Below, one piece after another: positions 26,958 through 52,935 of a DNA stretch of 64,000 bases (within the stretch, counting starts at the first letter, position 1; every line of letters starts with the position of its first letter). This DNA is from Natrinema salinisoli (GTDB taxonomy: Archaea; Halobacteriota; Halobacteria; Halobacteriales; Natrialbaceae), in NCBI RefSeq assembly GCF_020405205.1, contig NZ_CP084469.1, positions 2,418,001 through 2,482,000 on the forward strand, given 5' to 3'. The position numbers and the translations under genes were made by a program. The notes under the pieces were generated by a model, which searched no databases, was not told the DNA's origin, and worked only from the letters and a program-made list of their open reading frames with translations.

Positions 26958-26994
26958 CGTGACTCGGATCGACGACGGAGAACGGTGATCGAAC

Positions 26995-27423: not shown

Positions 27424-27426
27424 TCG

Positions 27427-28616: not shown

Positions 28617-28618
28617 CG

Positions 28619-30298: not shown

Positions 30299-30302
30299 GA
30301 CC

Positions 30303-32030: not shown

Positions 32031-32195
32031 TGGCCCGGTAGCATCCTGCGGTGGGAGTTGACCCGCCCGAATCGCGCTGATCGTCGATCACCACCGGACG
32101 AGTCCGCTTTCCGACGACTCACCGTTCGTAATGACACGAATCTTCTTGACCGCTGGACGACTGGAACACCAATAGACCGGCTCCGCCGGCCACTC

Positions 32196-32657
32196 ATGTC
32201 AGACTCAAAGCCCTACCTCGAGACGCTCGAACGATCGGCCGGGCGCACCGACGCCACGATCCAGTGGGCGCGCTTTCTCGGCGAAACCTTCGGCACGACG
32301 GGCGCGCTGAACTGTCTGCGCTACTACGAGGACCTGGGATGGATCAGTTCCCTCGTCCGCGAGCAGATGGTCTCGTACCTGCGCGGACTCTCGATGGGAG
32401 AGATCCACAACAAACGGTACGACGAACCGACCACCCTCGAGTACCCCCTCGAGTCCCTGAGCGGGACGCTCTTCAGCGCGCACGCCCAGAGTCTCGAGTA
32501 CATCGCGACGATTCGGGGCGACGACCTCGAGGAACACGTGATGATCGCGCGGATGGCCGAACGCCGGGTCGAACGGCGGATCGACGACGACGAAGACGAG
32601 GCCGACGAACCCAACGAGATGGTCAGTATCATCCGCGACGGGCCATCGACACACTGA
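32196..32657 (+). CDS. Stand-alone ArlD/E-domain archaellum accessory protein
   Basis: The 153-residue protein is essentially one FlaD/E domain: IQWARFLGETFGTTGALNCL followed by RYYEDLGWISSLVREQMVSY. It corresponds to the C-terminal domain of the ArlC/E protein in this window, with the shared YY-x5-W-I segment. The ATG at 32196 gives a normal domain start. It has its own 165-base upstream gap. In other haloarchaea FlaD/E paralogues take part in the switch complex, and a similar role is likely here. Confidence 0.8.
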   Translation: MSDSKPYLETLERSAGRTDATIQWARFLGETFGTTGALNCLRYYEDLGWISSLVREQMVSYLRGLSMGEIHNKRYDEPTTLEYPLESLSGTLFSAHAQSLEYIATIRGDDLEEHVMIARMAERRVERRIDDDEDEADEPNEMVSIIRDGPSTH

Positions 32658-32837
32658 CCATATATTCGGCGCGAGGCCACAACAATTATCAAGGGCTTTG
32701 GGACCGACCCTATAACTGAAAGAAATAGCCACAGATCGGTGCTTTTCTGAACATGTGCGGCCTTCATATAGCCGCTCTCCGAAATCACGACACGAGTCGA
32801 CGAGTAGTCAGTTATTATGTTATTCATCGACGTTTGA

Positions 32838-32848
32838 TTTATATATTT
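32838..32848 (+). promoter_or_regulatory. TATA box of the PadR-type regulator gene
   Basis: The sequence tttatatattt is a strong archaeal TATA box within an AT-rich stretch. It lies about 36 bases ahead of the ATG at 32879 and supports that start over the later in-frame ATG at 32999. Confidence 0.6.
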
Positions 32849-32878
32849 AGGAGATTGTTCGGTTCCCTGTCCCTTAAT

Positions 32879-33499
32879 ATGTCCCAGCGTCAGGGAATCA
32901 GTAGTCGTGAACGAACTCCGCGTTCGGACGTCCGTCGACAGTACGTCGTTGGCGGGCACGAACTGGGTCCGGTCACGAATCCCCATCCGGTGATCGAAAT
33001 GCGTAAGGATACAACAAATACCGATTCCGTGCTCGACGAACTGTCGAAAGCGGCGACTGCGGACAACCAGTCGGAATCGTACGACATCTCGCTCGGATCG
33101 TCCGACGATGCAACGAAAGACGTCGAGCGCGAACTCGACGAACTGATGGACCAGGTAAACAGCGCACTCCCGACCGACGAGGTCCAGTTCGACGAGGCCA
33201 TCATCAAGGAGAACTTGGACGAGATCCTCCTGATGCTCATCGCGTTGCACGAAGAAACCCACGGGAAGGAACTCCTCTCGGATCTGACCCACCTCTTCGG
33301 CGCCCAGCTCAGTCCGGGTACCGTCTACCCGAGCCTGCATAATCTAGAGGAAGAGGACGTTCTCTCGATGCACGCCAAAGTTCGAACCAAGGAGTACTCC
33401 ATCGACGACGAGGAGTACGTTCGTGCGACCGTCGAACGGACGATGGTCCAACACCTCGCCTTCGGCCTGTTGCTGTACGCCTTCCTGCCGCGCCTCTGA
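32879..33499 (+). CDS. PadR-like winged-helix regulator next to the archaellum operon
   Basis: The 206-residue protein has a C-terminal PadR-type winged helix: MLIALHEETHGKELLSDLTH, then LSPGTVYPSLHNLEEEDVLS and a wing ending KEYSID (about residues 120-180). The first 110 residues are acidic and of low complexity, with no recognised domain. The start at 32879 fits the TATA box; an internal ATG at 32999 would give 166 residues. Its place directly after the arl genes suggests control of archaellum expression, but this is by position only. Confidence 0.75.
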   Translation: MSQRQGISSRERTPRSDVRRQYVVGGHELGPVTNPHPVIEMRKDTTNTDSVLDELSKAATADNQSESYDISLGSSDDATKDVERELDELMDQVNSALPTDEVQFDEAIIKENLDEILLMLIALHEETHGKELLSDLTHLFGAQLSPGTVYPSLHNLEEEDVLSMHAKVRTKEYSIDDEEYVRATVERTMVQHLAFGLLLYAFLPRL

Positions 33500-38171: not shown

Positions 38172-39446
38172 TCACAGGTCGCCGCCGCAGAACGGACAGA
38201 AATTGTAGACGCCGTCCGACGGGATCTCTTTCTCGCAGTCGGGGCACGTTTCGACCGGCGTCTCGTCGGGAATGTACTGATCGAAGTCGTCGACGAATAT
38301 CCGGGTATCGGAACCGGTCCCGTCGCTGCTCGAGTCGGCGGCCGAGCTAGCAGCGTCGGCAGACGATGGGTCGTCAGTGCCAGCGCCTCCGGATTGTGTA
38401 TCTGGAGACGGATCGTCCGCGTCCGACGTGTCGGTGGGGCTCGCGGACGGCCCGTCGTCCGCCGACGTGCTCGCGGCACGGTCGGCCGACGAGTTCGAAC
38501 TGGAGGCATCGTTCGATTTCGACCCGCTGCGAGGAGCGGATCCCGTTCCCGGGCTCGACGGAACGACGTCGCTGGAGGATCGAGCCTTCTTCGAGGAGGG
38601 TCGGCCAGCACCCGCGCCGGTGGGCTGCCGACCGGACGAGTCCGATCGCATGCGCGACGTGAGGTCGGAAATCGTGTCTCTGAGATTCGGCAGCGATCCG
38701 GCAGACGGCGTGCGGGACGAAATCGCGTTTCGGGAGACCGGGACCGACCAGTCGGGCCCGTCCCATCGCGATTGTCGACTGTAGAGCGTCTCGATGCCGT
38801 AGAGTACCGTGACGAGGATCGGAACGGCGATCACGACGGATCGCACCATCGGTGTTCCCCCGCCGACTGCCACCGGATCCAGTGTCCGCGCGATCGGTCG
38901 TCCCGAACCGATCATTCGGCTGGCGAGGTCGAGCAGCACGACGACGACCGGGAACGCGGTGAGAGCACCGGCGACCAGCCCGTCGCGTTCGCGGTCTCGG
39001 CGGAGCGAATCGATCGCGATCGTCCGGTACGCCAGCGCGTACGCCGAGATAGCGATTGGGAAGAAGAGCCACGAGGAGAGCCGTATCGAACCGGTAGTCC
39101 AGATCGAGTAGCCGACTGAAACGGCGATACCGATAGCCGGAACGAGCAACAGGGGAAGCGCGTTGACTTCGTCGAACCACGAGTCGAAGCAGTAGCGATA
39201 GCCGACGACGAGGAGTCCGCCACCCCCGAAGAGAACCAGCAGCGTCCCGAGTCCGATCACGACGTTGACGACTGGGAGAACGGCACCACCGACACCCGCG
39301 GCGTCGATCGCCATGCTAATCGCGACCGCGAGGAGTTCGGCGAGAGCGAGGGTGAAGAACGTCGCCAGCAACGCGATGGGAACCGCGACCAGTTCCAGGA
39401 GAACGAGTGTTTCGTGGTCGTTACCTGATCCGTTCGGGGGGCGCAT
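38172..39446 (-). CDS. Membrane protein with C-terminal zinc ribbon
   Basis: The 424-residue protein has about seven transmembrane segments in residues 15-240. A 140-residue Ser/Asp/Gly-rich linker follows, and the C-terminal zinc ribbon is CPDCEKEIPSDG...FCPFCGG. The zinc ribbon resembles those of the FHA protein encoded divergently at 39823. The 376-base gap between the two genes is a shared promoter region. The protein may tether a cytoplasmic signalling complex to the membrane; this is inference from shared architecture and position. Confidence 0.65.
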   Translation of the reverse strand: MRPPNGSGNDHETLVLLELVAVPIALLATFFTLALAELLAVAISMAIDAAGVGGAVLPVVNVVIGLGTLLVLFGGGGLLVVGYRYCFDSWFDEVNALPLLLVPAIGIAVSVGYSIWTTGSIRLSSWLFFPIAISAYALAYRTIAIDSLRRDRERDGLVAGALTAFPVVVVLLDLASRMIGSGRPIARTLDPVAVGGGTPMVRSVVIAVPILVTVLYGIETLYSRQSRWDGPDWSVPVSRNAISSRTPSAGSLPNLRDTISDLTSRMRSDSSGRQPTGAGAGRPSSKKARSSSDVVPSSPGTGSAPRSGSKSNDASSSNSSADRAASTSADDGPSASPTDTSDADDPSPDTQSGGAGTDDPSSADAASSAADSSSDGTGSDTRIFVDDFDQYIPDETPVETCPDCEKEIPSDGVYNFCPFCGGDL

Positions 39447-39822: not shown

Positions 39823-40791
39823 ATGGCAGAACAAACCGAATTCAGCTGCGTCTCGTGTGAAACGACGTTCGATCCGTCCCCGAACGGCGGATTCTGTCCG
39901 AACTGTAACACGCCACACCCCGACTACGAAGCGCCGAGTGGTGACGACGCTGATAGTTCCGACGAGGAGTCCGAAACCGTCGACGACGCGACCGATGCCG
40001 AGGACGACGTCGAGGTAGAATACGACGAAGAAGAAGAGGCAGAGACGGACGGCGACGACGACGCGGAAGCGGACACCGACGGCGACGATGCCGAAGACGA
40101 CGGAGCGGAGCCGGGAGAGGACGAGCCGGCGACGATCGAGTGCCAGTCGTGTGACTCGACGGTCGATGCGTCGGCAGCGTTCTGCCCGAACTGCGGGGAG
40201 GAACTCGAGGAAGAGGACGAGAGCGAGGCGGACGAGCCGGTGGAGCTCACCGAGTGTCCGGACTGCGGGAACTCCATCGACGAGGAGTCGTTCTGCCCGA
40301 GCTGCGGGACGGATCTGGATGCGATTCGGGAAAGCGGAGGCGTCGACGATGCCGGCGACGAGGAAGCCGCTGACGAGGCCGGTGACGACGAGGGCAATGA
40401 CGAAGCCGACGACGCCGACGATGAAACCGCAGACGACGAAGCGAGCGATGACGAGGCATCGGACGACGAAGCCGACGACGTCCCGACCGAAGTGACGCTC
40501 GAGATCGACGGCGAACCCTACACGTTCGGTGACGGTGACGTGTTCGGCCGACGCGACGAGGAGTGGCTCGCGGACCTGGTTTCGGCGAGCGGCGGCCGCG
40601 AAGAGGCCCGATATCTCTCGAGCGAGCACCTCGAGTTCGCGGTCGAAGACGACGGCGTCTACGTGACTGACGTCAGTACGAACGGGACGAAGCGCAACGG
40701 AACTGCCATGGACGGTTCCGAGGAGAAGCTCGAGGACGGCGATACGCTCGAGCTCGCCGGTCGTGCGGAGATCGACGTGACGCTGTCGTAG
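39823..40791 (+). CDS. Triple zinc-ribbon / FHA domain protein
   Basis: The 322-residue protein has three short zinc ribbons: CVSC...CPNC (residues 9-30), CQSC...CPNC (about 107-125) and CPDC...CPSC (about 142-160). They are separated by highly acidic linkers. A C-terminal FHA domain follows (about 235-320), with GDVFGRRDEEW, LSSEHLEFAVEDDGVYVTDV and STNGTKRNG. FHA domains bind phosphothreonine. The genes downstream encode kinases and a phosphatase with FHA domains, so this is probably a scaffold or substrate reader in the same pathway. It is divergent from another zinc-ribbon membrane-protein gene. Confidence 0.85.
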   Translation: MAEQTEFSCVSCETTFDPSPNGGFCPNCNTPHPDYEAPSGDDADSSDEESETVDDATDAEDDVEVEYDEEEEAETDGDDDAEADTDGDDAEDDGAEPGEDEPATIECQSCDSTVDASAAFCPNCGEELEEEDESEADEPVELTECPDCGNSIDEESFCPSCGTDLDAIRESGGVDDAGDEEAADEAGDDEGNDEADDADDETADDEASDDEASDDEADDVPTEVTLEIDGEPYTFGDGDVFGRRDEEWLADLVSASGGREEARYLSSEHLEFAVEDDGVYVTDVSTNGTKRNGTAMDGSEEKLEDGDTLELAGRAEIDVTLS

Positions 40792-40978
40792 CGACCGACG
40801 ACCCGAGCCGTCCGCGTTCGCCGCGATAGTCGCGGTTTCTCTCGGCCAGATGCGTCAGCGTCGCGTAACGGGATGCCGTTTTTTCCACGCCCGTGTCGAG
40901 TCGGTTTCGTATCAACTGACATTAGATACCAGCGAAAAAGTTATCAGATCATCCTGAGAGGTATGATTAGTTACCGCA

Positions 40979-42187
40979 ATGACGACCGACTTCTCAACGA
41001 AACTGAATCGACCGTACGTGCCGGAGAACGGGGGCGGAATTACCTGCGAACTCACTATCGAACCGGACGACGACGGGAACGACGAGCCGACGGAGCGACA
41101 CATCGCGCTCTGTATCGACAGCAGCGGGTCGATGTCCTACAAGAAAATGGACCAGGTTCGCGACGCGACGAACCTCGTCTTCGGGCTCCTGAACGATCAG
41201 GACTACCTGAGTATCGTCACGTTCGATACCGAGGTCGACGTCATCATGGAAGCGACCCGGTGGGGAGACATCGAGCGCAGCGAGGCCGAGGCGAAGCTCG
41301 ACGAAATCGAAACCCGCGGCGGGACCGACATCTACGCCGGCCTCGAGGAGGCGCGAAAGTCGCTGCGCGGCCTCGACGAGGGAGAGGGGATCGCAAAGCG
41401 GATCCTGCTGCTCTCGGACGGCCGCGACATCCGACTCGAGGAGCCGGACTTCGAGCCGCTGGCGAAGGCGACCGCGGACGGCGGGACGTCGATTTACTCC
41501 GCCGGGATCGGCTCGAATTACGACAAGGGTATCATTCGGACGCTGGGCGAGCACTCCCAGGGCCAGTGGGCTCACGTGGAGAACCCGATGGACATCCGAT
41601 CGTTCTTCGGGGACGTCGTCCAGGAGGCGTCGACGGTCGTCGCGAACAACCCCGAACTGGTGATCGATCTGGAGGAGGGCTGTGAGGTCGGCGACGTCTA
41701 CCGTCGGCTCCCGCAGGTGCAGGAGGTCGACGTCGAGCACGCCGGGGGAAGTGCGATCATCGGACTGCCGGACCTGCTGGACCGCGAGCAACAGAAGGTC
41801 GTCCTGACCATGGACGCTCCCGTGGGCGAAATCGGGACGACCGCGACGATCGCCAACGTCGACCTGCAGGCCGGGTCGGCGTCGGCATCGACCGACATCT
41901 CGGTCAGCTACACCGACGACGAGGAGAAACTGGCGACCCAGAACGAGGACGTCACCCTCAGCTACCGCGAGACGGATCTCCGCACCCGTATCGCCCACGC
42001 CGACGACGAAGAAGAGATCGAGGAGGTCAAGGACCTGATCGACGAGACCGAGGTCATCACCGGCGAGACGGAGATAACGGACGCACTCCGAGAGAACGTC
42101 ACGCGGATCGAGGAAGGCGACGAGGAAGAGGTCCGCGAGATTCAGGAGAACACGACGGTCGTCTACGATGCCGGCCGGTTCGACTGA
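40979..42187 (+). CDS. von Willebrand factor A (VWA) domain protein
   Basis: The 402-residue protein has a VWA domain with a complete MIDAS. IALCIDSSGSMSYKKM gives D46-x-S-x-S, GGTDIYAGLEEA supplies the Thr, and LLLSDGRDIR the Asp. The domain spans about 40-215 and is followed by a beta-rich region and a C-terminal acidic helical region (EEIEEVKDLIDETEVITGET). VWA proteins bind partner proteins through the metal. The neighbours are an FHA protein and FHA-kinase/phosphatase genes, which recalls the bacterial TerY-P triads of VWA, kinase and PP2C. Confidence 0.85.
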   Translation: MTTDFSTKLNRPYVPENGGGITCELTIEPDDDGNDEPTERHIALCIDSSGSMSYKKMDQVRDATNLVFGLLNDQDYLSIVTFDTEVDVIMEATRWGDIERSEAEAKLDEIETRGGTDIYAGLEEARKSLRGLDEGEGIAKRILLLSDGRDIRLEEPDFEPLAKATADGGTSIYSAGIGSNYDKGIIRTLGEHSQGQWAHVENPMDIRSFFGDVVQEASTVVANNPELVIDLEEGCEVGDVYRRLPQVQEVDVEHAGGSAIIGLPDLLDREQQKVVLTMDAPVGEIGTTATIANVDLQAGSASASTDISVSYTDDEEKLATQNEDVTLSYRETDLRTRIAHADDEEEIEEVKDLIDETEVITGETEITDALRENVTRIEEGDEEEVREIQENTTVVYDAGRFD

Positions 42188-42269
42188 AAACGGTCGACGC
42201 GGTCGACCGGTGGCGGCGGATACCGTCCGCGGACGATCGGACACAGAGAGACACTAAGTACCAACCAAA

Positions 42270-43538
42270 ATGTCAGAGCCAACAGCCGGAGACGAACTCG
42301 CCGGCCGGTACGAGATTCAAGAACAGCTCGGGAGGGGCGGCTTCGGCGTCGTGTGGGCCGCAACCGACACCGACACGGGACAGTCGGTCGCACTGAAACA
42401 CCCCAACTACAACGGGAACGCGCCGGACGACCTCGTCGACAAGTACTTCGAGCGAGAGCGGGACGTCCTCGAGGACATCCGCGACGCGGGCGGCCATCCG
42501 AACATCATGGGGTACTACCGGAAGGAACACGGGTTCGGAATGCCGGTCCTCGTCATCGAGGCGATCGACGGCGAGGAGCTCGGCACGGTCGTCAAGAACG
42601 ACGATCCTATCACCGACGACGACGAGGTCCGCGAGATCGGCATCGGGATCTGCGACGCGCTCTCCTTCCTCCACGATCACGACCTCATCTACCGGGACCT
42701 CAAGCCGGACAACATCATGATCAACGGAACCAGGAACCCGAAGATCATCGACTTCACCACGGCCAAAGGGTTCGTCCCCGAACGCGGCGGTGCCGAGTTC
42801 ACGACGGAGAGTTCTGCGAGTTCCGCGGCCGGGGAGTCGAACGCGGACTCGACCGTCCCGGGGGAGTTCAAACCGCCGGAACTGAATCAGGGCTCGGAAC
42901 AGCGGCAGGGCCCCTGGAGCGACGTCTACTCGATCGGGAAGATCCTGTGTTACCTCAAGGTCGGCTGGGTCCCCGACGACGACGGCGTCGCACCCTCGGA
43001 CTTCGGCATCGAGACGGCGCCGTACATGGACGAGATCATCCGGCTCTCGACCCAGCACGATACCGTCGACCGGTATCCCAACGCGTCCGTTCTCAAGCGA
43101 TCCCTCGAGAAGCGCGACGCGACGATGCCGGCGCAGGCGTCGGTCCACTGGCTCGGCCGCGACGAGCGGTGGACGATCAGTCCGGGCGACACCATCGGCA
43201 GGGTGACGCCTGACGGACCTCGGCCCTCGATCATGCTCGAGGACGACCGACACAAGGCCCTCTCGGCCGTTCACTGCCGGTTCGACACCGACGAGGACGG
43301 GAACTGGCGGGTCATCGACACCAGTCTCAACGGCACCTACATCAGCAAACACGACGAACAGGAGTGGCACCTCCTGCTGTCGGAGGCCGGACAGGAACGC
43401 CAGCGACGCCACGGGGAGTCGGTTCCCGACGATCTCGAGGCGTCGACGGCGCTCGAGGGCGGCGACACGATCGCGCTGGTCAGTCCATCCTACCCCGAGC
43501 GGTTCTACTTCCAGTTCGATCACCAACCCGTGGAATGA
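42270..43538 (+). CDS. Ser/Thr protein kinase with C-terminal FHA domain
   Basis: The 422-residue protein has an N-terminal Hanks-type kinase domain: glycine loop LGRGGFGVVW (20-29), catalytic K43 in VALKHP, catalytic loop YRDLKPDN (D143, N148) and metal Asp161. The usual DFG motif reads DFT here (DFTTAKG), and the His of HRD is Tyr. The activation segment is long and Ser-rich (TTESSASSAAGESNADS). A C-terminal FHA-like domain (about 300-400) has TISPGDTIGRVTPDG and LSAVHCRF...NGTYISK. It is followed with a four-base overlap by the PP2C gene, so kinase and phosphatase are coupled. Confidence 0.9.
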   Translation: MSEPTAGDELAGRYEIQEQLGRGGFGVVWAATDTDTGQSVALKHPNYNGNAPDDLVDKYFERERDVLEDIRDAGGHPNIMGYYRKEHGFGMPVLVIEAIDGEELGTVVKNDDPITDDDEVREIGIGICDALSFLHDHDLIYRDLKPDNIMINGTRNPKIIDFTTAKGFVPERGGAEFTTESSASSAAGESNADSTVPGEFKPPELNQGSEQRQGPWSDVYSIGKILCYLKVGWVPDDDGVAPSDFGIETAPYMDEIIRLSTQHDTVDRYPNASVLKRSLEKRDATMPAQASVHWLGRDERWTISPGDTIGRVTPDGPRPSIMLEDDRHKALSAVHCRFDTDEDGNWRVIDTSLNGTYISKHDEQEWHLLLSEAGQERQRRHGESVPDDLEASTALEGGDTIALVSPSYPERFYFQFDHQPVE

Positions 43539-45217
43539 CTATGGAATACGCGAGCACTATCGATATCGGCGCACGGAAGCAACGACGCGACGGAATCAAC
43601 GAGGACGGCATCGCGACGGCGGTCTTCGAGAATCAACACCGGCAGACGGAACGGCCGGTCGGAGTCTTCGTCCTCGGTGACGGGGTCGGCGGCGAGGACT
43701 GCGGCGACGTCGCCGCCTTCCTGGCGACGACCGTCGTCAGGAAGCGGCTCACCGACGCCCTCCTCGGTCCCGGAACGGACGTCCCGGAACGGTTCGGTAT
43801 CGACTCCTACGAGCCGACGCCGCCGACGGCCGACGCCGACCCGAACGGGGCCGTCTCCGAAGGAAAGATCAAAACCGCGATTCAGGAGGGGATCGACGCT
43901 GCCCACCAGCACATCCAGGAGTTCGCCCAGAGCATCGGCGGCCGCCCGGCGACGACGCTCGTCGTCGGCGTCTACGTCGACGGGCACCTCCACTACGGCT
44001 GGGTCGGCGACAGCCGGATCTACGTCATCAACGAGCGCCACGAGGAAACGAAACAGCTCACGCGGGATCACGCCGTCACGAACGACCTGCTCGAGAAGGG
44101 GGAGATCGACGACGAGGTGTACGCCCGCATCCACCCCGATGCGACGGCGATCACGAACGTCGTCGGCGGCTCCGCGCACGGCCAGCCGAGCGTCGACGTC
44201 GAGTTCGGGTCCACCGAGATCTACCGCGACGACATCATCCTGTTTACGAGCGACGGCCTGGTCGACGCGTTCCCGGACAACCGCTCGCTTCGGGAGACGT
44301 ACCAGCAGGCGACGGACATGGACGCCGCTCGCGAAGAGATCCGCGAGTCGCTGGTCACGGACGACGAGATCCGAGATATCGTCCTCGGGGCCGACGATCT
44401 CCGGGAGGGGGTCGAGCAACTCGTCTCGTTCGCCAACGACCGCGGCGGCAAGGACAACCTCTCCCTGACGCTGGCCAGGGATCGGGGAACGACGCCGTCG
44501 CCGGACTCGCCGCCGCTTCGCGGTGCGGCCACCGACACTCGGGAGCTGACGAACCAAGAGACGATCATCGATCCGCCCGAGGAGGCCGCCGAGTCCGGTT
44601 CGGCGACCGACTCCGGTGATAGCGGCGGAAGCACGCGAGCCGGAAGCGAGGCGAACGCCTCGTCCGGCGGCTCGAGGCGATCGTCACAGGACGGCGGAAC
44701 GGCGAAGGTAGTTTCGGCCGGCGAGGGCGACCCGCCGACGGCCGCGGTCACGATCGCGGGTGACGAGACCATCTTCGAGATCGTCGACGGCGTCACCATC
44801 GGCCGGACGACGGATGGGAGCGACCAGAGCCCGAACATCGGTCTGGTCGTCGGCGACGACGCGTCCGTCGAGCCCCACCACGTCCGGCTGGAGTGCGACG
44901 ACGACGGCTACTGGCAGGTCCGCGATATCAGCGCCGTCGGGACGTTCGTGGAGACCGGCGACGGGACGTGGACGGTGCTGCTCTCGAGCGAGGGGGCCGA
45001 CCTCCATCGCGAGCACGGGTTCGACCCGAGCACCGCCGCCGACGGCGATCTCGACGAGACGACCCGACTGGAAGAGGGGATGGCGTTCACGTTCGAGGAC
45101 CCCCGGAAGGAGGACCCGATCACGTTTCGCTTCTTCTCGTCGGTCGAGCACGCCCAGAACCGGACGCGCTGGAGTGACTCGACGGACGGGAGGCCCTTCA
45201 ATGGGTTCTCCACGTAA
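43535..45217 (+). CDS. PP2C-type protein phosphatase with C-terminal FHA domain
   Basis: The 560-residue protein has a PP2C domain with NEDGIATAVF, VFVLGDGVGGEDCGDVAAFL, GWVGDSRIYVI, LFTSDGLVDAF and GGKDNLSLTLA, the Asp/Gly residues that bind two metals. A Ser/Gly/Asp linker (about 325-400) leads to an FHA domain (about 405-515; FEIVDGVTIGRTTDG, VEPHHVRLECDDDGYWQVRD, VGTFVE). It overlaps the kinase stop by four bases (ATGA), so both are translated together. It should reverse phosphorylation by the adjacent kinases. Confidence 0.9.
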   Translation: MTMEYASTIDIGARKQRRDGINEDGIATAVFENQHRQTERPVGVFVLGDGVGGEDCGDVAAFLATTVVRKRLTDALLGPGTDVPERFGIDSYEPTPPTADADPNGAVSEGKIKTAIQEGIDAAHQHIQEFAQSIGGRPATTLVVGVYVDGHLHYGWVGDSRIYVINERHEETKQLTRDHAVTNDLLEKGEIDDEVYARIHPDATAITNVVGGSAHGQPSVDVEFGSTEIYRDDIILFTSDGLVDAFPDNRSLRETYQQATDMDAAREEIRESLVTDDEIRDIVLGADDLREGVEQLVSFANDRGGKDNLSLTLARDRGTTPSPDSPPLRGAATDTRELTNQETIIDPPEEAAESGSATDSGDSGGSTRAGSEANASSGGSRRSSQDGGTAKVVSAGEGDPPTAAVTIAGDETIFEIVDGVTIGRTTDGSDQSPNIGLVVGDDASVEPHHVRLECDDDGYWQVRDISAVGTFVETGDGTWTVLLSSEGADLHREHGFDPSTAADGDLDETTRLEEGMAFTFEDPRKEDPITFRFFSSVEHAQNRTRWSDSTDGRPFNGFST

Positions 45218-45311
45218 GCGTGCGGGTACTCCCGTGTCCGAATTCCGTATCCCCAACCGTCGAAACGGACAGTCCCCGTGAACGGCGAGCGGGCCGCCGG
45301 AGCGAAGCGCG

Positions 45312-46526
45312 ATGACGGAGGGCGAGCGGACGGGCACGATCGTCGACGACCGGTTCCGTCTCGAGGAGCGACTCGCCGCCGGCGGTCTCGGGACGGTCTG
45401 GCGCGCGACCGACCGTGAGCGAGAGATTCAGGTCGCACTCAAGTGCGAGAACGACGGCTCGCACGATCCGGAGCAGGTTCGGGCGCACTTCCAGGGGGAA
45501 CTCCAGTGGTTCCGCCGGTTCGAGGGGGGACCGGTTCCCGGATCGCTCGTGCAGTTCGTCGACGGTGCGGTCGACGGAGACACGGTGTACATCGCTACGG
45601 AACTGATCCGCGGCGGCTCGGTCGACGACGTCGTGGACCGCGAGACGGATCCGGAACCCGCCCTCGAGCGCGTTCGGGAGCTCGGCGGCCCGGTCTGCCG
45701 GACGCTCGAGTTCCTCCACGGAAACGGCGTCGCGCACCTCGATGTGACGCCGAGTAACGTGCTCGTTCGCCGGTCCGGCCAGCCCGCAGTGATCGATCTG
45801 AACGCCGCGGTGGCGACCGAGACGGAGCCGGACGTCCGCTTCGGTCGCGATCCGTTCAAACCGCCCGAACAGACGCGGACGAACAATCCCACTGCATCGA
45901 TCGGCCCGTGGTCCGACGTGTACGCGCTCGGACGGTTTCTCGCCGTTCTGCTGACCGGAACGACGGAGGCGGATTCGAACGAAGCCCGGGAGCCCGTCGA
46001 TCTTCAATCTCGCGGCGTCAATTGCCCGTCGGCTCTCAGCGACCCGATCCGTCGCGCGACCGCACCCAACTACCGCGACCGGTTCGACGACGCCGGCGAC
46101 CTCTACGACGCGCTCGTCCCGTTCCTCGAGGTATCGGATCGAGCCGCCGAGTTGGTCCACGAGCCGTCCGAGCGCGCCGTTCGCGTTCGTCCCGGCGACA
46201 CCGTCGGCCGCTGGGCGGCGGACGGACGGACTCCGACCGTCGTGTTCCCGGACGACGAGCGATACCTCTGTCCCGAACACGCCGCCCTCGAGTGCGACGA
46301 GGAGGGCTGGCAGCTTCGAGACCGGAGTCTCAACGGAACCTTCGTTCAGCGGGAGGGTCCGTGGGAGTACGTGCTCTCTCGAGAGGGGCGGGAGCGCCGG
46401 CGCGACGCTGACGCACCCCTTCCGCGCCCCGATCCGCCGGCGTCGATCCGGCTGGCCGACGGCGATCGCATCTCGCCGGTCTCACCCGACTACGGCTGTC
46501 ACGTGGTGTTTCGGCCCGAAGAGTGA
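45312..46526 (+). CDS. Atypical Ser/Thr kinase-like protein with C-terminal FHA domain
   Basis: The 404-residue protein has a kinase fold with LAAGGLGTVWRATDRE, K44 in VALKCEND, the loop AHLDVTPSNVLV (D144, N149) and IDLN in place of DFG. HRD is HLD, the catalytic-loop Lys is Thr146 and the DFG Gly is lost, so activity may be low or changed. A C-terminal FHA-like domain (about 290-365) has VRPGDTVGRWAADG, CPEHAALECDEEGWQLRD and SLNGTFVQ. It lies 94 bases after the PP2C gene, has the same architecture as the first kinase and is probably a paralogue. Confidence 0.85.
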   Translation: MTEGERTGTIVDDRFRLEERLAAGGLGTVWRATDREREIQVALKCENDGSHDPEQVRAHFQGELQWFRRFEGGPVPGSLVQFVDGAVDGDTVYIATELIRGGSVDDVVDRETDPEPALERVRELGGPVCRTLEFLHGNGVAHLDVTPSNVLVRRSGQPAVIDLNAAVATETEPDVRFGRDPFKPPEQTRTNNPTASIGPWSDVYALGRFLAVLLTGTTEADSNEAREPVDLQSRGVNCPSALSDPIRRATAPNYRDRFDDAGDLYDALVPFLEVSDRAAELVHEPSERAVRVRPGDTVGRWAADGRTPTVVFPDDERYLCPEHAALECDEEGWQLRDRSLNGTFVQREGPWEYVLSREGRERRRDADAPLPRPDPPASIRLADGDRISPVSPDYGCHVVFRPEE

Positions 46527-46570: not shown

Positions 46571-48124
46571 TCAGTCGTCCCCGGTCGAGTCGCTCGTGGT
46601 CGCTCCGCCGGGCTCACTCGCGGTCGCTTCGTCAGGGTTCGATCCGTTCTCGGACCGAGACTCCCAGCCGAGCGGCGCGGGCTCGAGGAGGTCTTCTTCC
46701 CGTAGTCCGGCGAGTCCGAGCAGGTCGTCGTCGTCGATTTCGACGGCGGAGTCCGACTCCGACATGGCCCCTGAATCGGGAGCCGACGTTGCATGCGGAT
46801 CGGCCTGCGAAGCAGTCCCCGACTCGGCGGCAGGCGTTTCGTTCGAATCGGTATCCGACGCTGCCGTCGAGTCGGTCCTCGCCGCTCGGTCGTCGGTCAC
46901 TGGTGGGGTGTCGGACGCGTCGGAGAGTGCCGGCCGGTCACTCCCGCTTTCGGCGATCGATTCGCCGTCAGTTACTGACTGAGGGGTATCGTCTGCAAAC
47001 GAAATTCGATCGTCGATGTCCTTGGCCGCCGACGGTTTCGCCGGCGGCTCGAAGACCGAGACCATCCCGTCGCCGCGAACGACGTACAGCTCCCGCTCCG
47101 GATCGAAGACGATCGCCGATCCGACGTCGATCCCGAATTCGGCCAGCGCCAACAGCGTCTCGAGTTCCCCTCGCGGACCCTCGAGCGCGGCGTCGGGCAG
47201 CCGCATGGTCGTGATCACCTGTTCGAACTCGTCGCGGTCGTCGCGATACGCGAGCCACTCCCGCTCGGCGGCCGTCGGGGTCGGAACGCGCCGAGAGACG
47301 TATCTGAGTCCGACGAGTCCGCCGATGCCGAGGACTACCAGCAGCGGCCCGCCGATGCTCCGAACCGGGCTAACCGAAGCGGGGACGGTTTCGGTCTCGT
47401 ACTCCTCGTGAGTCTCGGTGTAGGATTGGTCGTCCGTGATTTCATACGTTCCGCTATCGGCATCGATCGTGACCCGATAGCTGTCCGCCGTCGATCGTCG
47501 CTCGCCGGCGATGGTGCCGTCGATCTCTCGCTCGAGGACGAGTTCGATATCCGTGTCGCCCCGGCTGGCCTCGAGGTCAGACTCGATCTCGTCGATTCGA
47601 GCCGTAATCTCGCTGACGTTGACCGAGAACGCGGCGGTGACGTTCTCTCCCGGTTGCACGTCCGCTTCGCGGGTCGACGCCAGTCGTTCGCGCTCGCTCC
47701 AGTGGGTGGTGTTGTCGGACCCGACGGAACGATACACGAGATCGACCGTGAGTCCGACCTGGACGTTATCGCTCGTTCGCGCGTCGTACCCCGCGACGAA
47801 CTCCCCGTCGACCGTCGGGCTGATGGCCGTATAGTAGAGGGGATCGTTCTCGAGGCGCGTCCCCTCGGCGTAGACCGTGTTCGGTTCGGTGACCGTAGCC
47901 GCGTGGGACACGTCTCCCGTCGCGGTCCAGGCCGCCGTCCGTTGCTGCGTCGTCTCTTCGCCCGGCGTCGCGTAGGCGCCGTAACTGATCCACCCGCCCA
48001 GTGCCACCAGCACGACGAGGGCGACGATGATCGCCGTCCGATACTCCGCCAACAGAACGCGGGAGCGCAGTCGGCGCTCGTCGTCCACCGTGCCGCCGTC
48101 CGTCTCGGTCAGACGTCCACTCAT
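46571..48124 (-). CDS. DUF5305 family membrane protein with acidic tail
   Basis: The 517-residue protein has two membrane helices, at about 28-48 (YRTAIIVALVVLVALGGWIS) and near 270-290. The extracytoplasmic domain between them contains QQRTAAWTATGDVSHAATVT and NTVYAEGTRLENDPLYYTAI, recognisable as DUF5305. The cytoplasmic C-terminal 200 residues are Asp/Ser-rich and disordered. It is two bases downstream of the signal-peptidase gene, so the two are co-expressed. DUF5305 proteins commonly accompany Sec11-type signal peptidases in haloarchaea, which suggests a role in surface-protein biogenesis. Confidence 0.8.
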   Translation of the reverse strand: MSGRLTETDGGTVDDERRLRSRVLLAEYRTAIIVALVVLVALGGWISYGAYATPGEETTQQRTAAWTATGDVSHAATVTEPNTVYAEGTRLENDPLYYTAISPTVDGEFVAGYDARTSDNVQVGLTVDLVYRSVGSDNTTHWSERERLASTREADVQPGENVTAAFSVNVSEITARIDEIESDLEASRGDTDIELVLEREIDGTIAGERRSTADSYRVTIDADSGTYEITDDQSYTETHEEYETETVPASVSPVRSIGGPLLVVLGIGGLVGLRYVSRRVPTPTAAEREWLAYRDDRDEFEQVITTMRLPDAALEGPRGELETLLALAEFGIDVGSAIVFDPERELYVVRGDGMVSVFEPPAKPSAAKDIDDRISFADDTPQSVTDGESIAESGSDRPALSDASDTPPVTDDRAARTDSTAASDTDSNETPAAESGTASQADPHATSAPDSGAMSESDSAVEIDDDDLLGLAGLREEDLLEPAPLGWESRSENGSNPDEATASEPGGATTSDSTGDD

Positions 48125-48126
48125 TC

Positions 48127-49290
48127 TCAGTAGAGCCTCCGAATGATCGACCGCGCCGTGGTCCGCCGACTGCGGGCGGCCAGTCGTCTCGAGCGAGCGT
48201 CCACCGGTCCGGCGAGTACCCGACCGAGACCGTAGGTTCCACCGCCGAGTAGCGAAAGGATAGTGGCGAACGGCACCCACGGGTGGAGCTCGTAGAGAGC
48301 GTCGAGAACCGGTACCGGAAGCACGTACAGGTAGCGATACTCGGTGATGTACGTCGGGAAGTAGCCGGTCTCGTCGGGTGTCGTAATCGAGACCGTGACC
48401 GACGTCTCGTCCCGTGGACCGACGGTCGCCCGGTCCGGTGTGACCGTCACGTCGTCGCCGCCGGATTCGACGTAGGAGACCGTCGGAACGAACCCACCGT
48501 TCGAAACCGTATACGGGATCTCGTCGGTCGTTCCCCGTTCGATCACGAGCGGTTGCTCCGACTCGAACTCCGCGCTGATCACGTCGTAGGACTGCGTCCC
48601 CGCCGGCACGATCATCGCCGCCCCTCCTGCGGAGACGACTAACAGCGCGAACCCGGCCGAGAGCACTCGCGGATCGATTCCGTCGCCCCCGTCGTCGCTA
48701 CCGAGCCGCGATTCGAACGACGTCGATCGCCGTTCGCGGACCGTCTCGGCGACGTAGAGGACGCTCGAGAAGGCGAGCAGAACCACCGCCAGGCCCGAGT
48801 TTCCGAGGAGGTTCCGCGTTCCGAACGCGGCCGCCAGTTTCGTTTGAACACCGCCGAACGCATCGCTCACCGACATGACGGCCGTCCCGAAGTGAGGGAT
48901 CGTCACGACCGCGCCGTTGACTTGCCACGCGGTCGCGACGATCTGAGCGTCCTGTACGTGGGGCTCGTTGCCGTCCTGATCGGTAAACGGATTCGCGTCC
49001 CCGCGCGTTACGTACCCGCGAGGCGTCTCCTCGACGATACGGTGCGTCGTCAGTCCGCCGCCCTGAATCTTCTCGGCCTCGAACACAACGACGTCGCCCG
49101 GCTCCGGTTCGCCGGTCACTTCGCTCGGAACGGCGATGAATCCGTCACCCGTGTCGATCGTCGGTTCCATACTCCCGGTTTCGACGAAACTGAGCAGTAT
49201 CGGCTGTCCGAGCAGTTGCCCCGCGACCAGCGCGAGAACGGTAACGACAACGAGTCCTCGCAGTGCCCATCCGACCCCCCGACGAATCAT
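48127..49290 (-). CDS. Sec11-type signal peptidase I with C-terminal extension
   Basis: The 387-residue protein starts with a membrane helix and has the catalytic serine box VETGSMEPTIDTGDG (S40). The second catalytic residue is the His of TTHRIVEETP (H83), not a Lys, and RGDANPFTD follows. This Ser-His type is typical of archaeal/ER and Bacillus SipW-type peptidases. The C-terminal 190 residues hold a further membrane helix, a beta-rich extracytoplasmic domain and a basic tail. That is longer than a plain signal peptidase. It heads a two-gene operon with DUF5305 and lies near DUF1102-like secreted proteins, suggesting dedicated processing. Confidence 0.85.
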   Translation of the reverse strand: MIRRGVGWALRGLVVVTVLALVAGQLLGQPILLSFVETGSMEPTIDTGDGFIAVPSEVTGEPEPGDVVVFEAEKIQGGGLTTHRIVEETPRGYVTRGDANPFTDQDGNEPHVQDAQIVATAWQVNGAVVTIPHFGTAVMSVSDAFGGVQTKLAAAFGTRNLLGNSGLAVVLLAFSSVLYVAETVRERRSTSFESRLGSDDGGDGIDPRVLSAGFALLVVSAGGAAMIVPAGTQSYDVISAEFESEQPLVIERGTTDEIPYTVSNGGFVPTVSYVESGGDDVTVTPDRATVGPRDETSVTVSITTPDETGYFPTYITEYRYLYVLPVPVLDALYELHPWVPFATILSLLGGGTYGLGRVLAGPVDARSRRLAARSRRTTARSIIRRLY

Positions 49291-49318
49291 TTTTCCACTA
49301 GATCAACGAGATGAACTC

Positions 49319-49332
49319 ACATATAAATATGT
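49319..49332 (-). promoter_or_regulatory. TATA promoter of the signal peptidase operon
   Basis: The near-palindromic sequence acatataaatatgt lies about 36 bases upstream of the ATG at 49290 (minus strand). It contains a clear TATA box in a sharply A/T-rich stretch. The 250-base gap from 49291 to 49540 holds no gene. Confidence 0.55.
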
Positions 49333-49540
49333 ATCCATAAGAGTTTGGCTAGTTATAAGAATACGGTTTCCGACGGGAACGTACCCGGTAACGGGGTTCG
49401 AAGCGTGCGTACTGTACGCCACGTTCGGTACTCGAGACGCTCGTCGAGGGCGGAATCCGGCAAAGTGAGGTGATCGGCTTCCTCCGAGAACCGGTCCCCG
49501 AAGGGGTTCGATCCGTCGACGGCTCTCGTAGTGGGTGTGG

Positions 49541-49666
49541 TTAGCTGTTGAAGAGCCGTTCGAGCTCCGCGTTGATCGCGTCTCGATCCAGTTCCTCGCT
49601 ATCGAGGTCGAAATCGACGTCCGCGACCTCTTCGTAGTCGCTGAGTGTCGGTGTGTCGTTCGTCAT
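49541..49666 (-). CDS. 41-residue acidic protein
   Basis: The short frame MTNDTPTLSDYEEVADVDFD continues to LDSEELDRDAINAELERLFN. It starts three bases after the stop of the DUF1102-like gene on the same strand. Its codon use is like that of the neighbours. It is predicted mostly helical, with a very acidic N-terminal half and an amphipathic C-terminal helix. It could be a real translated small protein of the secreted-fibre operon or a chance frame; spacing favours translation coupling. Confidence 0.5.
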   Translation of the reverse strand: MTNDTPTLSDYEEVADVDFDLDSEELDRDAINAELERLFNS

Positions 49667-49668
49667 CG

Positions 49669-50268
49669 TCAGAGTTCCTCCGCAGTGATTTCGATTTCGT
49701 CGCTGATCTCGACCGAGTCCACCGCGCTCTCGGGAATCGCAAAGGCCGCCAGGCTGAAGTCGATCTCGTCGCCGGGCGAGAGCTCCGAGAGGGAAATGAG
49801 GTTCACCGGCGGGGACCACGACATGTCGTAATCGAGCGCCACGCCGCCGATCTGTGGCACCAGAAGGACGCCGAGAACGCCGTCGAAGTTAGCGAAGTCC
49901 GCGTCGGCGAACGCCAGCGGCGCGACCTCGAGTTGAATGTCCTGTGTCCCCTGGTTCTGGATCTTGAACAGGTCCGCGATCCCGGTCACGGCGTTGGCGT
50001 TCAACCCTTCGCCGCCGGCGAGACCGGAGCCGATGTTGTCGTTGTCGCCGGTCAGGTTGATCGCGAGTGCGTCGCTGTCCGTCGTATCGACGTAGTTGCC
50101 GTTCGGTCCGTCGCCGGGTTTGATGCCGAGGTACGCGCTGGAGTCGTCGGTGACCGCGACGCCGACGTCGCGCTCCGCCTCGACGTTACTGAACGCCCCG
50201 GTTCCCAGGGCGATGCCACCGCTCGCGGCGAGCGCGCCGGCACTGAGTACGAATTTTCGTCGTTCCAT
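49669..50268 (-). CDS. DUF1102-like secreted protein (Tat-type signal)
   Basis: The 199-residue protein has an N-terminal RR motif and hydrophobic signal: MERRKFVLSAGALAASGGIA followed by GTGAFSNVEAERDVGVAV. The mature protein is beta-rich, with DDSSAYLGIKPGDG, FKIQNQGTQDIQLEVAPLAF and LSPGDEIDFSLAAFAIP. This pattern of a signal followed by GAFS-x-VEAER and a FxIxNQGTQ strand is that of haloarchaeal DUF1102 proteins. It lies 15 bases after a paralogue, in one operon. Confidence 0.75.
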   Translation of the reverse strand: MERRKFVLSAGALAASGGIALGTGAFSNVEAERDVGVAVTDDSSAYLGIKPGDGPNGNYVDTTDSDALAINLTGDNDNIGSGLAGGEGLNANAVTGIADLFKIQNQGTQDIQLEVAPLAFADADFANFDGVLGVLLVPQIGGVALDYDMSWSPPVNLISLSELSPGDEIDFSLAAFAIPESAVDSVEISDEIEITAEEL

Positions 50269-50283
50269 ATCGTTCTACTCCGT

Positions 50284-50823
50284 TTAGTTCGCCGTCGCGC
50301 TGACGGTCACCGAGTCGAGCAGCTCGTCGCCGTCGCCGAGCCCGCTGCCTTCCGTGTCGACCTCGACGCTGACGGTCGTGCTTTCGCCGGGACCTAACGT
50401 GACGGGACTGGTCGCCAGCGAATCGCCGTCGTAGGCCTCGCCGTCGGGGTAGAACGAGACGCGGCTCGCGTTGTCGCCGGTCTTGGAGAAGTCGACGTCG
50501 ACCTCCTGGGTCCCCTGGTTTTCGATGACGAACAGGTCGTCGATCTCCGTGATCGCGTCCGGATTGACGCCGTCACCGCCCGCGTCGGTGGGGTTGTTCG
50601 AGCTGAGGTCGATCGTCAGCGTCCCGCCGTTTCCGTCGCCCGTCACGTACTCCGAGTTCGCGCCGCCGGCGCCTTCGAGGCGCAGGTAAGCGGAGGCGTC
50701 GTCGGCGACTTCGACGTCGACGTCTCGTGATGCGGTCACGCTCGAGAACGCACCCGATCCGACGGCTGCAGCAGTTCCCGATGCCAGTGCTCCCATTCCG
50801 ATAACGAATTTGCGTCGTTGCAT
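50284..50823 (-). CDS. DUF1102-like secreted protein (paralogue)
   Basis: The 179-residue protein begins MQRRKFVIGMGALASGTAAA and has GSGAFSSVTASRDVDVEVAD, then FVIENQGTQEVDVDFSKTGD and LGPGESTTVSVEVDTEG. The signal peptide, GAFS turn and NQGTQ strand match the gene at 49669-50268. The similarity to TasA-type subunits is in layout only (signal, then beta-sandwich), so fibre formation is an inference. A long leader of about 120 bases precedes the ATG; the TATA-like tattgtaatac at 50942-50952 may be its promoter. Confidence 0.75.
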   Translation of the reverse strand: MQRRKFVIGMGALASGTAAAVGSGAFSSVTASRDVDVEVADDASAYLRLEGAGGANSEYVTGDGNGGTLTIDLSSNNPTDAGGDGVNPDAITEIDDLFVIENQGTQEVDVDFSKTGDNASRVSFYPDGEAYDGDSLATSPVTLGPGESTTVSVEVDTEGSGLGDGDELLDSVTVSATAN

Positions 50824-50983
50824 GGTTGGATTCTCCGTTGTGTCGTTCGCAGGCGATCACGCGGCCGCGCTCGGACGGCGGCTCGGCGCTCGCCCCGACC
50901 CCCGCTGCGGGGATCACGAGAAATCCGTGACCGGGAAGGGGTATTGTAATACAGACGTGGACTCGAGTCCGTGAGACGTTACC

Positions 50984-51154
50984 GTTGGGTCAACCGCTCG
51001 CGTACCGAACGGACGACGGCGTATCGGATCGGTTGACCGCTGTCGGTGCGGAACAGTCAGTCGTCGACACCGGTGCAACCACCGTTGACTCGCGGTCAAC
51101 CGACTCGAGACCGAGACCCGACCGTCGTCTGTGAACAGTTGACTACCAGTCAAC
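50984..51154. promoter_or_regulatory. Operator-like cluster: two GTTGAC-N5-GTCAAC palindromes and two partial sites
   Basis: The sites gttgactcgcggtcaac (51084-51100) and gttgactaccagtcaac (51138-51154) are perfect six-base inverted repeats with five-base spacers, 54 bases apart. Partial sites are gttgggtcaac (50984-50994) and ggttgacc (51031-51038). All lie in the 499-base gap (50824-51322) between the DUF1102-like operon and the divergent membrane-regulator gene. No protein gene is seen in the gap. The TATA-like aatttaagatatg (51264-51276) serves the plus-strand gene. Confidence 0.6.
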
Positions 51155-51322
51155 GGCAGTCTGAACCGGCAATATAGTGTAAAATGTCTAATACTGTCGG
51201 CCAACAGCGCGATAGTGACCCATCGTTCCGGGTGGAAATACATCCCTCCAAAGTGTAATTTTAATTTAAGATATGAAAGTAACCAATAGACTTATTTGCG
51301 AAAGTGTGGAGGTATCAATTCA

Positions 51323-51943
51323 ATGGGGGTCAGCCAAGCGAAACCATCCGGGGAGATCGACGTATCGCAGCCAGACCGGCAGCGGTTGACTGAAGACGAA
51401 CTCTTCGAGCTCCTGGCGAACCAGCGGCGGCGACACATCATGCACGCGCTCATGCGCGAGGACGCGCGCCTCGATATCGGTGACCTCTCACAGGAGATCG
51501 CCGCCTGGGAGGACGGGCTCGCCTTCGAGGACGTCTCGAGCACCGATCGGAAGCGGGTCTACACTGCCCTCCAGCAGTCCCACCTCCCGAAAATGGACAA
51601 GGCGGGCGTCGTCGAGTTCGATCGCGACCGGGGGACGATCGAGCCGACGCCGGCACTGGAAGACGTGGAGATCTACATGGACGTCGTCCGCGGCCGCGAG
51701 ATCCCCTGGAGCGACTACTACCTCGGGTTGACGGCGCTCTCCGGCGCACTGTTCGTCACGTCGACACTCGACTTGCTACCGTTCAGCCAGCTCCCCGCAG
51801 CCGCGTGGGGCGTCTTCGTCATCGTCACGTTCGCCGTCTCCGCGCTCGCACACCGCTACTACGCCAGACGGAGCCGACTCGGGATCGCGGAGCAGCCCCC
51901 GAGCGTGGAACTCGAGTACCGGGATCGACCGACCGACGAGTGA
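51323..51943 (+). CDS. Membrane-anchored winged-helix regulator (DUF7344-like)
   Basis: The 206-residue protein has a winged-helix domain: LTEDELFELLANQRRRHIMH, ALMREDARLDIGDLSQEIAA, RKRVYTALQQSHLPKMDKAG and VVEFDRDRGTIEPTP (about 25-115). Two membrane helices follow (about 140-185), then an RRSRLGIAEQ tail. The DNA-binding part matches haloarchaeal DUF7344-type regulators. It diverges from the DUF1102-like operon and directly faces the GTTGAC palindromes. It may sense an envelope signal and control that operon; this is inference from position. The ATG at 51323 begins the conserved-looking part. Confidence 0.8.
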   Translation: MGVSQAKPSGEIDVSQPDRQRLTEDELFELLANQRRRHIMHALMREDARLDIGDLSQEIAAWEDGLAFEDVSSTDRKRVYTALQQSHLPKMDKAGVVEFDRDRGTIEPTPALEDVEIYMDVVRGREIPWSDYYLGLTALSGALFVTSTLDLLPFSQLPAAAWGVFVIVTFAVSALAHRYYARRSRLGIAEQPPSVELEYRDRPTDE

Positions 51944-52011
51944 TCGACCGACAGGACAACGGCTCCGGTCGGGGCCCCGTCAGCGCCCCCACGACACCAG
52001 AGACAACACGA

Positions 52012-52935
52012 ATGAAACGGACGAGACGCGCTGCACTGGCGACGATCGCGGGCTCGAGTGGCGTCCTCGCTATCGAGACGATGGGGTTCTCGACGGCGGG
52101 GCTCGAGCGAGACGCACAGGTTCGGACCGCCGGCGATGCGAACGCCTATCTCGGGCTGACTGCGGACGGCGTCGAAGAGGGTGGAGTGTTGTTCGAGGGG
52201 GACCCTCGGCAGCCGCCCACCACGTTCGACGTCATCAATCAGCTCACGGAACCGATCGCGGTCACGCTCACGGTCGAGCACTTCCGGTTCCGGTCGGCCG
52301 ACGGCAACCCCGTCTCCGACGACCGGGTTATCCGTCGCGAGAGCGCGAACGAGCGGCTGGGTCCCGGCGAACGAATCGCCGACGTTACCGTCGGACTGGA
52401 TCCGGAGCGCGATGGAACGAGTGGTGAAACCGTCACGGGAACGATCGGGATCGAGGCCGCGGGCGACGAGACGACGGTCGAGGCCGAACGCGAACTCACC
52501 CTCGAGCGACCCGAGATCGCGATCGACTCGGCTCGGCTCGAGGTGACCCAGACCGGCGGCGGCGTCTTCGAACACGCGTGGTCACTCTCCTCGGTCGATA
52601 CCGACGGAGCGCCACTCGAGCGGCTTCGGTTCGACTACGGTCGCATCGAGACGACCCGGGCGCTCGACTTCACCGGCGCGGACGCGCTGTCGGCGTCGGT
52701 CGCGATCGACGGCAGCGAGCACGCGGCGACGATCGAGCGACGAACCCCCGAGACGCTCGCTCTCGCGCTCGAGTCGCCGGTCTCGATCGATCACGGCACC
52801 GTCGAAATCGTCCTGACGAACACCGGGCCACCCGCGAGTCCCGGCGGCGGAAACCGGTCGCCGAGCGGCGCCGTCCTCGAACTCCAGTGTGGCGGCGCCA
52901 GTGCTCGCGTCGAGGGCGTCTGGCGTCGTCCGTAG
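52012..52935 (+). CDS. Third DUF1102-like secreted protein
   Basis: The 307-residue protein has an arginine-rich signal (MKRTRRAALATIAGSSGVLA) and the same layout as the two paralogues upstream: STAGLERDAQVRTAGDANAY, LGLTADGV, then FDVINQLTEPIAVTLTVEHF. It is longer because of extra beta domains to residue 300 and ends with CGGASARVEGVWRRP. It lies 68 bases after the regulator gene on the same strand, so the two may share a transcript. Confidence 0.65.
   Translation: MKRTRRAALATIAGSSGVLAIETMGFSTAGLERDAQVRTAGDANAYLGLTADGVEEGGVLFEGDPRQPPTTFDVINQLTEPIAVTLTVEHFRFRSADGNPVSDDRVIRRESANERLGPGERIADVTVGLDPERDGTSGETVTGTIGIEAAGDETTVEAERELTLERPEIAIDSARLEVTQTGGGVFEHAWSLSSVDTDGAPLERLRFDYGRIETTRALDFTGADALSASVAIDGSEHAATIERRTPETLALALESPVSIDHGTVEIVLTNTGPPASPGGGNRSPSGAVLELQCGGASARVEGVWRRP

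Follow-up and report, generated by a model that had tools for sequence, protein, structure and literature searches.

The window analyzed here is a 64,000-nucleotide stretch of Natrinema salinisoli (contig NZ_CP084469.1, positions 2,418,001 to 2,482,000), and it carries between its positions 39823 and 46526 an island of five genes for FHA, von Willebrand factor A (vWA), Hanks-type kinase, and PP2C phosphatase proteins. All five open reading frames lie at these positions on the plus strand, and each named domain of the five proteins scores above the curated Pfam cut-off. An earlier reading of the letters alone (the original prediction) had described five consecutive same-strand genes with an FHA domain in four of them, a vWA protein, two kinases, and a PP2C; coordinates and Pfam agree with it, and all FHA regions pass their profile searches. 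A gene on the opposite strand, TMzr, which the original prediction did not include, is a sixth gene belonging to the island and travels with it. The six genes are as follows.

39823 to 40791, plus strand: zrFHA, an ArnA-like reader with zinc ribbons, an acidic linker, and a C-terminal FHA domain (Pfam FHA, 1.3e-6).
40979 to 42187, plus strand: the vWA protein, an ArnB-like scaffold (Pfam VWA, 7.7e-20).
42270 to 43538, plus strand: STK1, a PknB-like kinase (Pfam, 3.2e-30) with an FHA tail (8e-7).
43535 to 45217, plus strand: the PP2C phosphatase (PP2C, 1.4e-8) with a C-terminal FHA domain (4.4e-4); alternative start at 43541.
45312 to 46526, plus strand: STK2, a kinase not of the arginine-aspartate (RD) type (Pfam, 4.2e-22), with an FHA tail (5.5e-5); degenerating in this species.
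38172 to 39446, minus strand: TMzr, with membrane segments, a long disordered Ser-rich low-complexity tail, and a C-terminal zinc ribbon; the proposed client or output.

The FHA domain of the PP2C protein lies near the threshold (21.1 bits versus a Pfam cut-off of 20.7). The four-base overlap claimed for STK1 and PP2C exists if PP2C starts at the ATG at 43535 and disappears if it starts at the ATG at 43541, the second ATG, from which most relatives' PP2C proteins align. A whole-genome search found no FHA or PP2C gene outside the island, and two of the three clear Hanks kinases of the genome lie within it (one further match is sub-threshold), so that the composition of the island is more than chance.

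Genes of relatives were called with a simple codon model. An FHA gene is present in 16 of 242 well-sequenced Halobacteria genomes and clusters with the genes for the vWA protein, STK1, and PP2C in all 16. The same cluster was found at four further loci (G012, G031, G026, and N. salsiterrestre, the nearest named relative, with a PP2C 97% identical), and G160 has two copies. The vWA, STK1, and PP2C genes keep the same order on one strand in the FHA-bearing haloarchaeal genomes except G252, and the self-contained kinase, phosphatase, and FHA module of the original prediction is conserved as a unit in other haloarchaea. Two lineages can be distinguished, with identities of 46 to 92% for most core genes in lineage A and about 35 to 45% in lineage B; lineage A forms one clade with 99 to 100% bootstrap support in the vWA, STK1, and PP2C trees (10 non-redundant loci). 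Within Natrinema, the module occurs in 3 of 25 genomes searched, and the site is empty in G010 and G014, where the beta-CASP gene, h37592, and w52945 are adjacent with nothing between them, as against about 15 kb in the window. Clustering, the lineage-A clade, the Natrinema distribution, and the empty sites together indicate that the core is inherited together but patchily; the module is real but patchy in Halobacteria. STK2 is dispensable, since it is missing from the islands of G080, G187, and one of the two in G160 (G160a).

Such patchiness within Natrinema, together with the degeneration of STK2 in that genus, could also be read as a decaying mobile cassette that has no dedicated output and is kept by chance. 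This is very unlikely, because catalytic residues, the metal ion-dependent adhesion site (MIDAS) of the vWA protein, and the pocket residues of STK1 are conserved over deep divergence, and among Natrinema the vWA proteins are at least 90% identical versus about 50% for the divergently oriented neighbor, TMzr.

Profile comparisons place the vWA protein closest to ArnB of Sulfolobus among solved structures (8s05_A, E = 2.8e-22), with further matches to the ArnB paralogue vWA2 (5a8j, 6.5e-14) and to the bacterial protein 4fx5 of the same three-part build (2.8e-13); a weak second segment of the vWA hidden Markov model (HMM) profile also matches ArnB. Its MIDAS residues D47, S49, S51, T116, and D147 are invariant. 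The zrFHA profile weakly matches the ArnA zinc finger (8s05_C, E about 3e-4; 5a8i, 7.5e-4). In Sulfolobus (PMC6509490, PMC12852372), kinases phosphorylate the ArnB C-terminus, the FHA domain of ArnA binds the phosphorylated form, and the ArnA zinc finger docks on the ArnB sandwich and C-terminal domain. The zrFHA protein looks like a reader rather than the kinase substrate that had been supposed.

The FHA domains of the island differ in their pockets, of which two are located below.

40543 to 40692, plus strand: zrFHA pocket, canonical (FGR, LSSEH, TNGT); intact in 12 of 12 lineage-A relatives.
44867 to 44944, plus strand: altered pocket of the PP2C FHA domain, VEPHH (Glu for Ser) and SAVGT (Asn lost).

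STK1 retains the kinase Lys, the YRDLKPDN catalytic loop, and the activation-loop Thr (STVPGE), and the Arg, Ser, and Asn of its FHA domain are intact at all 21 loci. In all 12 lineage-A PP2C FHA domains the phosphate-binding Ser is replaced by Glu or Asp and the phosphate-binding Asn is missing, so that canonical binding of phosphothreonine by this domain is improbable. The second kinase, STK2, is of the non-RD type and has no activation-loop Thr; in this species its catalytic loop reads HLDVTPSN, with Thr for the Lys of the HLDLKPSN found in relatives, and its FHA pocket reads LCPEH, with Cys for a Ser that is lost in Natrinema. Judging from these residues, not every FHA domain of the island should read phosphothreonine. 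The proposals that the FHA tails of all the enzymes assemble the complex and that the two kinases are equal partners do not fit these pockets and loops.

Three conserved T-x-[IV]-type sites lie in the proteins of the island, one of them next to a zinc ribbon.

42152 to 42166, plus strand: TTVVY (Thr392/393) at the C-terminus of the vWA protein, a candidate phosphosite; TT-x-V-[YF] in 12 of 12 lineage-A proteins.
44558 to 44572, plus strand: ETIID (Thr343), a candidate phosphosite of the PP2C linker that follows the catalytic domain.
38295 to 38309, minus strand: DTRIF (Thr381) of TMzr, a candidate phosphothreonine tag; [DEQ]T[RQ]I[FY] in 12 of 12 relatives.
38187 to 38246, minus strand: C-terminal zinc ribbon of TMzr, the second half of the tag.

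The vWA protein, which the original prediction had suggested as a kinase substrate, thus gains a concrete candidate site in its C-terminal TTVVY. In lineage B, [AT]T-x-[IV] is found at the vWA C-terminus in 7 of 9 proteins. Over both lineages, T-x-[IV] occurs in 20 of 21 vWA tails versus about 5 of 21 expected from shuffled tails, a comparison that is descriptive only because the sequences are related; one of the 20, from G247, matches by chance and lies away from the aligned site. The PP2C linker has E-T-x-[IL] at 19 of 21 loci and D-T-V-V in G194, with 80% identity in the motif versus 21 to 32% in its flanks. A TMzr relative adjoins the island at 11 of the 12 lineage-A loci by whole-protein similarity and at the 12th (G031) by its C-terminal tag, either upstream or downstream of the island and at genomic sites that differ among loci. 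Its motif stands directly before the zinc ribbon, which in TMzr scores under the Pfam cut-off; Thr and Ile are kept in 12 of 12, and mean pairwise identity is 82% in the motif, 37% in the membrane part, and 22% in the surrounding tail.

Other proteins carry both features too. At lineage-B loci, T-x-[IV]-[FY] plus a zinc ribbon closes the C-terminus of many unrelated proteins, of the cold-shock, PQQ propeller, pentapeptide, winged-helix, HEAT, and membrane kinds. Across all loci both features occur in 20 of 141 genes within 3.5 kb of the core versus 6 of 485 further out (nominal Fisher p = 2.4e-9), and 5 of the 6 distant genes belong to the cluster of G247 itself. In profile searches, where a full match meant an E value below 1e-6 and an alignment spanning the motif, there was one match each in G000, G006, G012, and G160, six in G194 (all inside the locus), and thirteen in G247, of which eleven fall between 2.38 and 2.43 Mb and two outside. 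When genes were called again over wider stretches, the tagged proteins surrounding the core came to 7 in G194 and 13 in G247, a few of them weak. Other zinc ribbons inspected in G000, G006, and G012 lacked the motif; in two module-free Natrinema genomes the tag profile matched zinc ribbons only, and those that were read had no motif. We tentatively propose that haloarchaea use a portable two-part address tag, in which a phosphorylatable T-x-[IV]-[FY] would bind FHA domains and a C-terminal zinc ribbon would bind the vWA scaffold, so that unrelated proteins are plugged into one FHA/vWA kinase-phosphatase hub. No description of such a tag was found in open-access papers. The G247 cluster (C1, 2.387 to 2.427 Mb; L103, L064, L065) holds about 13 tagged proteins in 39 kb, with a J-domain membrane protein nearby that repeats DETVIQD.

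In an alternative reading, the island is a conflict or defense module, a TerY-P-like kinase-PP2C-vWA switch that arms variable effectors or sensors and whose tagged clients are interchangeable. The patchy distribution and clean empty site agree with it, as do the lineage-B clusters with MoxR ATPase, CoxE-type vWA, DnaJ, HEAT, PQQ propeller, pentapeptide, and cold-shock clients, which resemble systems described previously (PMC7159879). No nuclease, toxin, or other effector domain was recognized in lineage A, however, and the PADLOC matches came from the kinase fold, with every other component unmatched, so that membership in a known defense system of that library was rejected; we consider a defense role doubtful, though worth weighing. 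The G194 module adjoins a gene for a MoxR-type AAA ATPase and one for a CoxE-type vWA protein (L063, 1190 to 4020), an arrangement resembling MoxR-vWA ternary conflict systems.

At one locus the neighbors suggest instead posttranslational control of a contractile injection system, comparable to the action of PpkA, PppA, and Fha on type VI secretion. The locus is that of G026, where sheath, tube, and Pvc16 genes stand next to the module and Pvc16 contains two TTRIG motifs. No gp19-type tube gene was found in the genome of N. salinisoli, and tube genes occur in 5 of 16 FHA genomes versus 59 of 242 overall, which shows no enrichment. With a single locus behind it, this link was rejected and is extremely unlikely. 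In detail, at the G026 locus (L021, 38 to 4293 and 13716 to 17870) genes for the sheath, two tube proteins, DUF6760, and Pvc16 border on the FHA module; TTRIGNP is repeated twice at the Pvc16 N-terminus, and a nearby 1384-residue HEAT membrane protein repeats SETIIMQPGDD.

The window also carries, at 24781 to 33499, a cluster of archaellin and arl/fla genes (C/E, F, G, H, I, J, D/E) that includes a gene for a PadR regulator. The ArnA/ArnB-like pair and the archaellin and arl genes at 24781 to 32657, with the same neighborhood in G006 and G012, could mean that the island is the haloarchaeal counterpart of the Sulfolobus archaellum network and regulates the archaellum genes lying some 7 kb upstream of it. 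All four combinations of presence and absence occur at the site, where G242 and G031 have the island and no archaellum genes, G014 and G018 have archaellum genes and no island, and G010 and G022 have neither; in most relatives the island lies elsewhere. Archaellum control was rejected on these grounds and is unlikely, and the proximity of the upstream cluster is probably coincidental. On the other side, at 46571 to 52935, the island adjoins genes for a signal peptidase, a DUF5305 protein, and a pair of related proteins whose starts resemble twin-arginine signals. This block had been suggested as the output, but it accompanies the island in G012 and N. salsiterrestre and is absent from its side in G006, G242, and other genera, and we rejected it. 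Neither motility nor secretion is supported as the physiological output, and overall the interpretation offered with the original prediction is partly supported.

We favor, with modest confidence, a phosphothreonine switch in which an ArnA-ArnB-like pair has its own kinase and phosphatase. STK1, as the conserved kinase of the RD type, would activate itself through its loop Thr and phosphorylate the T-x-[IV] sites in flexible tails, namely, TTVVY of the vWA protein, ETIID of the PP2C linker, and DTRIF of TMzr. Both zrFHA and STK1 would bind these phosphothreonines through their canonical FHA domains, and the zinc ribbons of zrFHA and TMzr may dock on the vWA scaffold as the ArnA zinc finger does on ArnB, so that phosphorylation, as we propose, tightens a loose complex at the membrane. 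PP2C, tethered through its own linker site, would strip the phosphates and reset the switch. What the sequences show directly is the content, order, and co-inheritance of the genes, the conservation of catalytic and pocket residues and of the sites, and the recurrence of the tag; phosphorylation, binding, and the membrane output are what we infer.

Several observations weigh against the switch or its tag. In most lineage-B zrFHA proteins His replaces the pocket Ser, which implies that the reader chemistry differs there. The Pfam ArnB C-terminal domain gave no match at E ≤ 1 in the vWA protein, and the ArnB phosphosites of Sulfolobus lie in a helix bundle and do not follow the motif. AlphaFold2 models of the vWA pair and of the PP2C FHA domain alone had a mean predicted local distance difference test (pLDDT) score of 38 to 39; the otherwise poor vWA model has helices at 315 to 392. 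Finally, the p values for the tag are nominal, the sequences being related, and counting began after the motif had been spotted.

Sulfolobus is the main source of knowledge on archaeal phosphothreonine signaling, and its kinases, phosphatase, and readers are scattered. In N. salinisoli a single island unites all parts, and close relatives exist in nature both with and without it. Because the island holds the only recognized FHA and PP2C genes of the genome, one deletion would remove the recognized FHA-reading pathway, and because the shared tag points to substrates at the level of single residues, kinase-substrate-reader relations in archaea would become directly testable.

A search of open-access papers found none on this gene set, and the comparison with known systems is therefore one of parts. 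The island shares with TerY-P, which the original prediction took as the nearest relative, a vWA protein, a PP2C, and a Ser/Thr kinase, the last two adjacent. In TerY-P the kinase has a zinc ribbon fused to its C-terminus (PMC11090510), whereas the island kinases are fused to FHA, the zinc ribbons are on other proteins, and the vWA protein is ArnB-like; membership was rejected for want of the kinase-zinc-ribbon fusion. The vWA-TerF-like profile matched just 2 of 18 vWA family members (E ≥ 0.049). Like the GAP1-N2 and MoxR-vWA ternary conflict systems (PMC7159879), the island has a vWA protein, a PP2C, and a kinase with zinc ribbons, and at one lineage-B locus MoxR/vWA genes and repeat proteins are neighbors; the island differs in being FHA-centered and in having no GTPase core. 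The Halo_FHA loci (PMC10936438) likewise combine a haloarchaeal FHA protein with kinases and phosphatases; their defining Vps4/ESCRT-III was not among the window genes examined with Pfam, no dedicated search having been made. On haloarchaeal plasmids, an ArnB-like vWA gene stands beside Hsp70 with tubulin-like genes near (L068, with GrpE too, and L069), possibly another use of the same scaffold; other plasmid relatives of the vWA protein have unrelated settings. A Halomicrobium plasmid stretch (L067, 11782 to 24489) holds three kinases, a HEAT protein, and a PP2C.

The threonine phosphorylation pathway of type VI secretion (PpkA, PppA, Fha) offers the same set of kinase, phosphatase, FHA reader, and membrane target; the island differs in having a vWA scaffold and no secretion system. 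Fha binds TssL, a membrane protein, at pThr14 within DLPpTVVEI (PMC3953482); as a membrane partner with a T-x-V site, TssL is functionally comparable to TMzr. Of the systems described so far, ArnA-ArnB of Sulfolobus comes closest. The authors of that work noted ArnB-like builds in Halorubrum, and the available parts of their papers do not describe an island-type gene set. The island differs in its C-terminal motif, its membrane partner, the lack of a kept archaellum link, its PP2C (PP2A in Sulfolobus), its PknB-like kinases, and the placement of kinases and phosphatase in the same cluster with FHA tails on both. It agrees with ArnA-ArnB in the adjacent zinc-finger/FHA and vWA genes, the former with an N-terminal zinc finger and a C-terminal FHA domain, and in the presence of Hanks kinases, which in Sulfolobus (ArnC/ArnD, with PP2A) act on the vWA C-terminus that the FHA domain reads.

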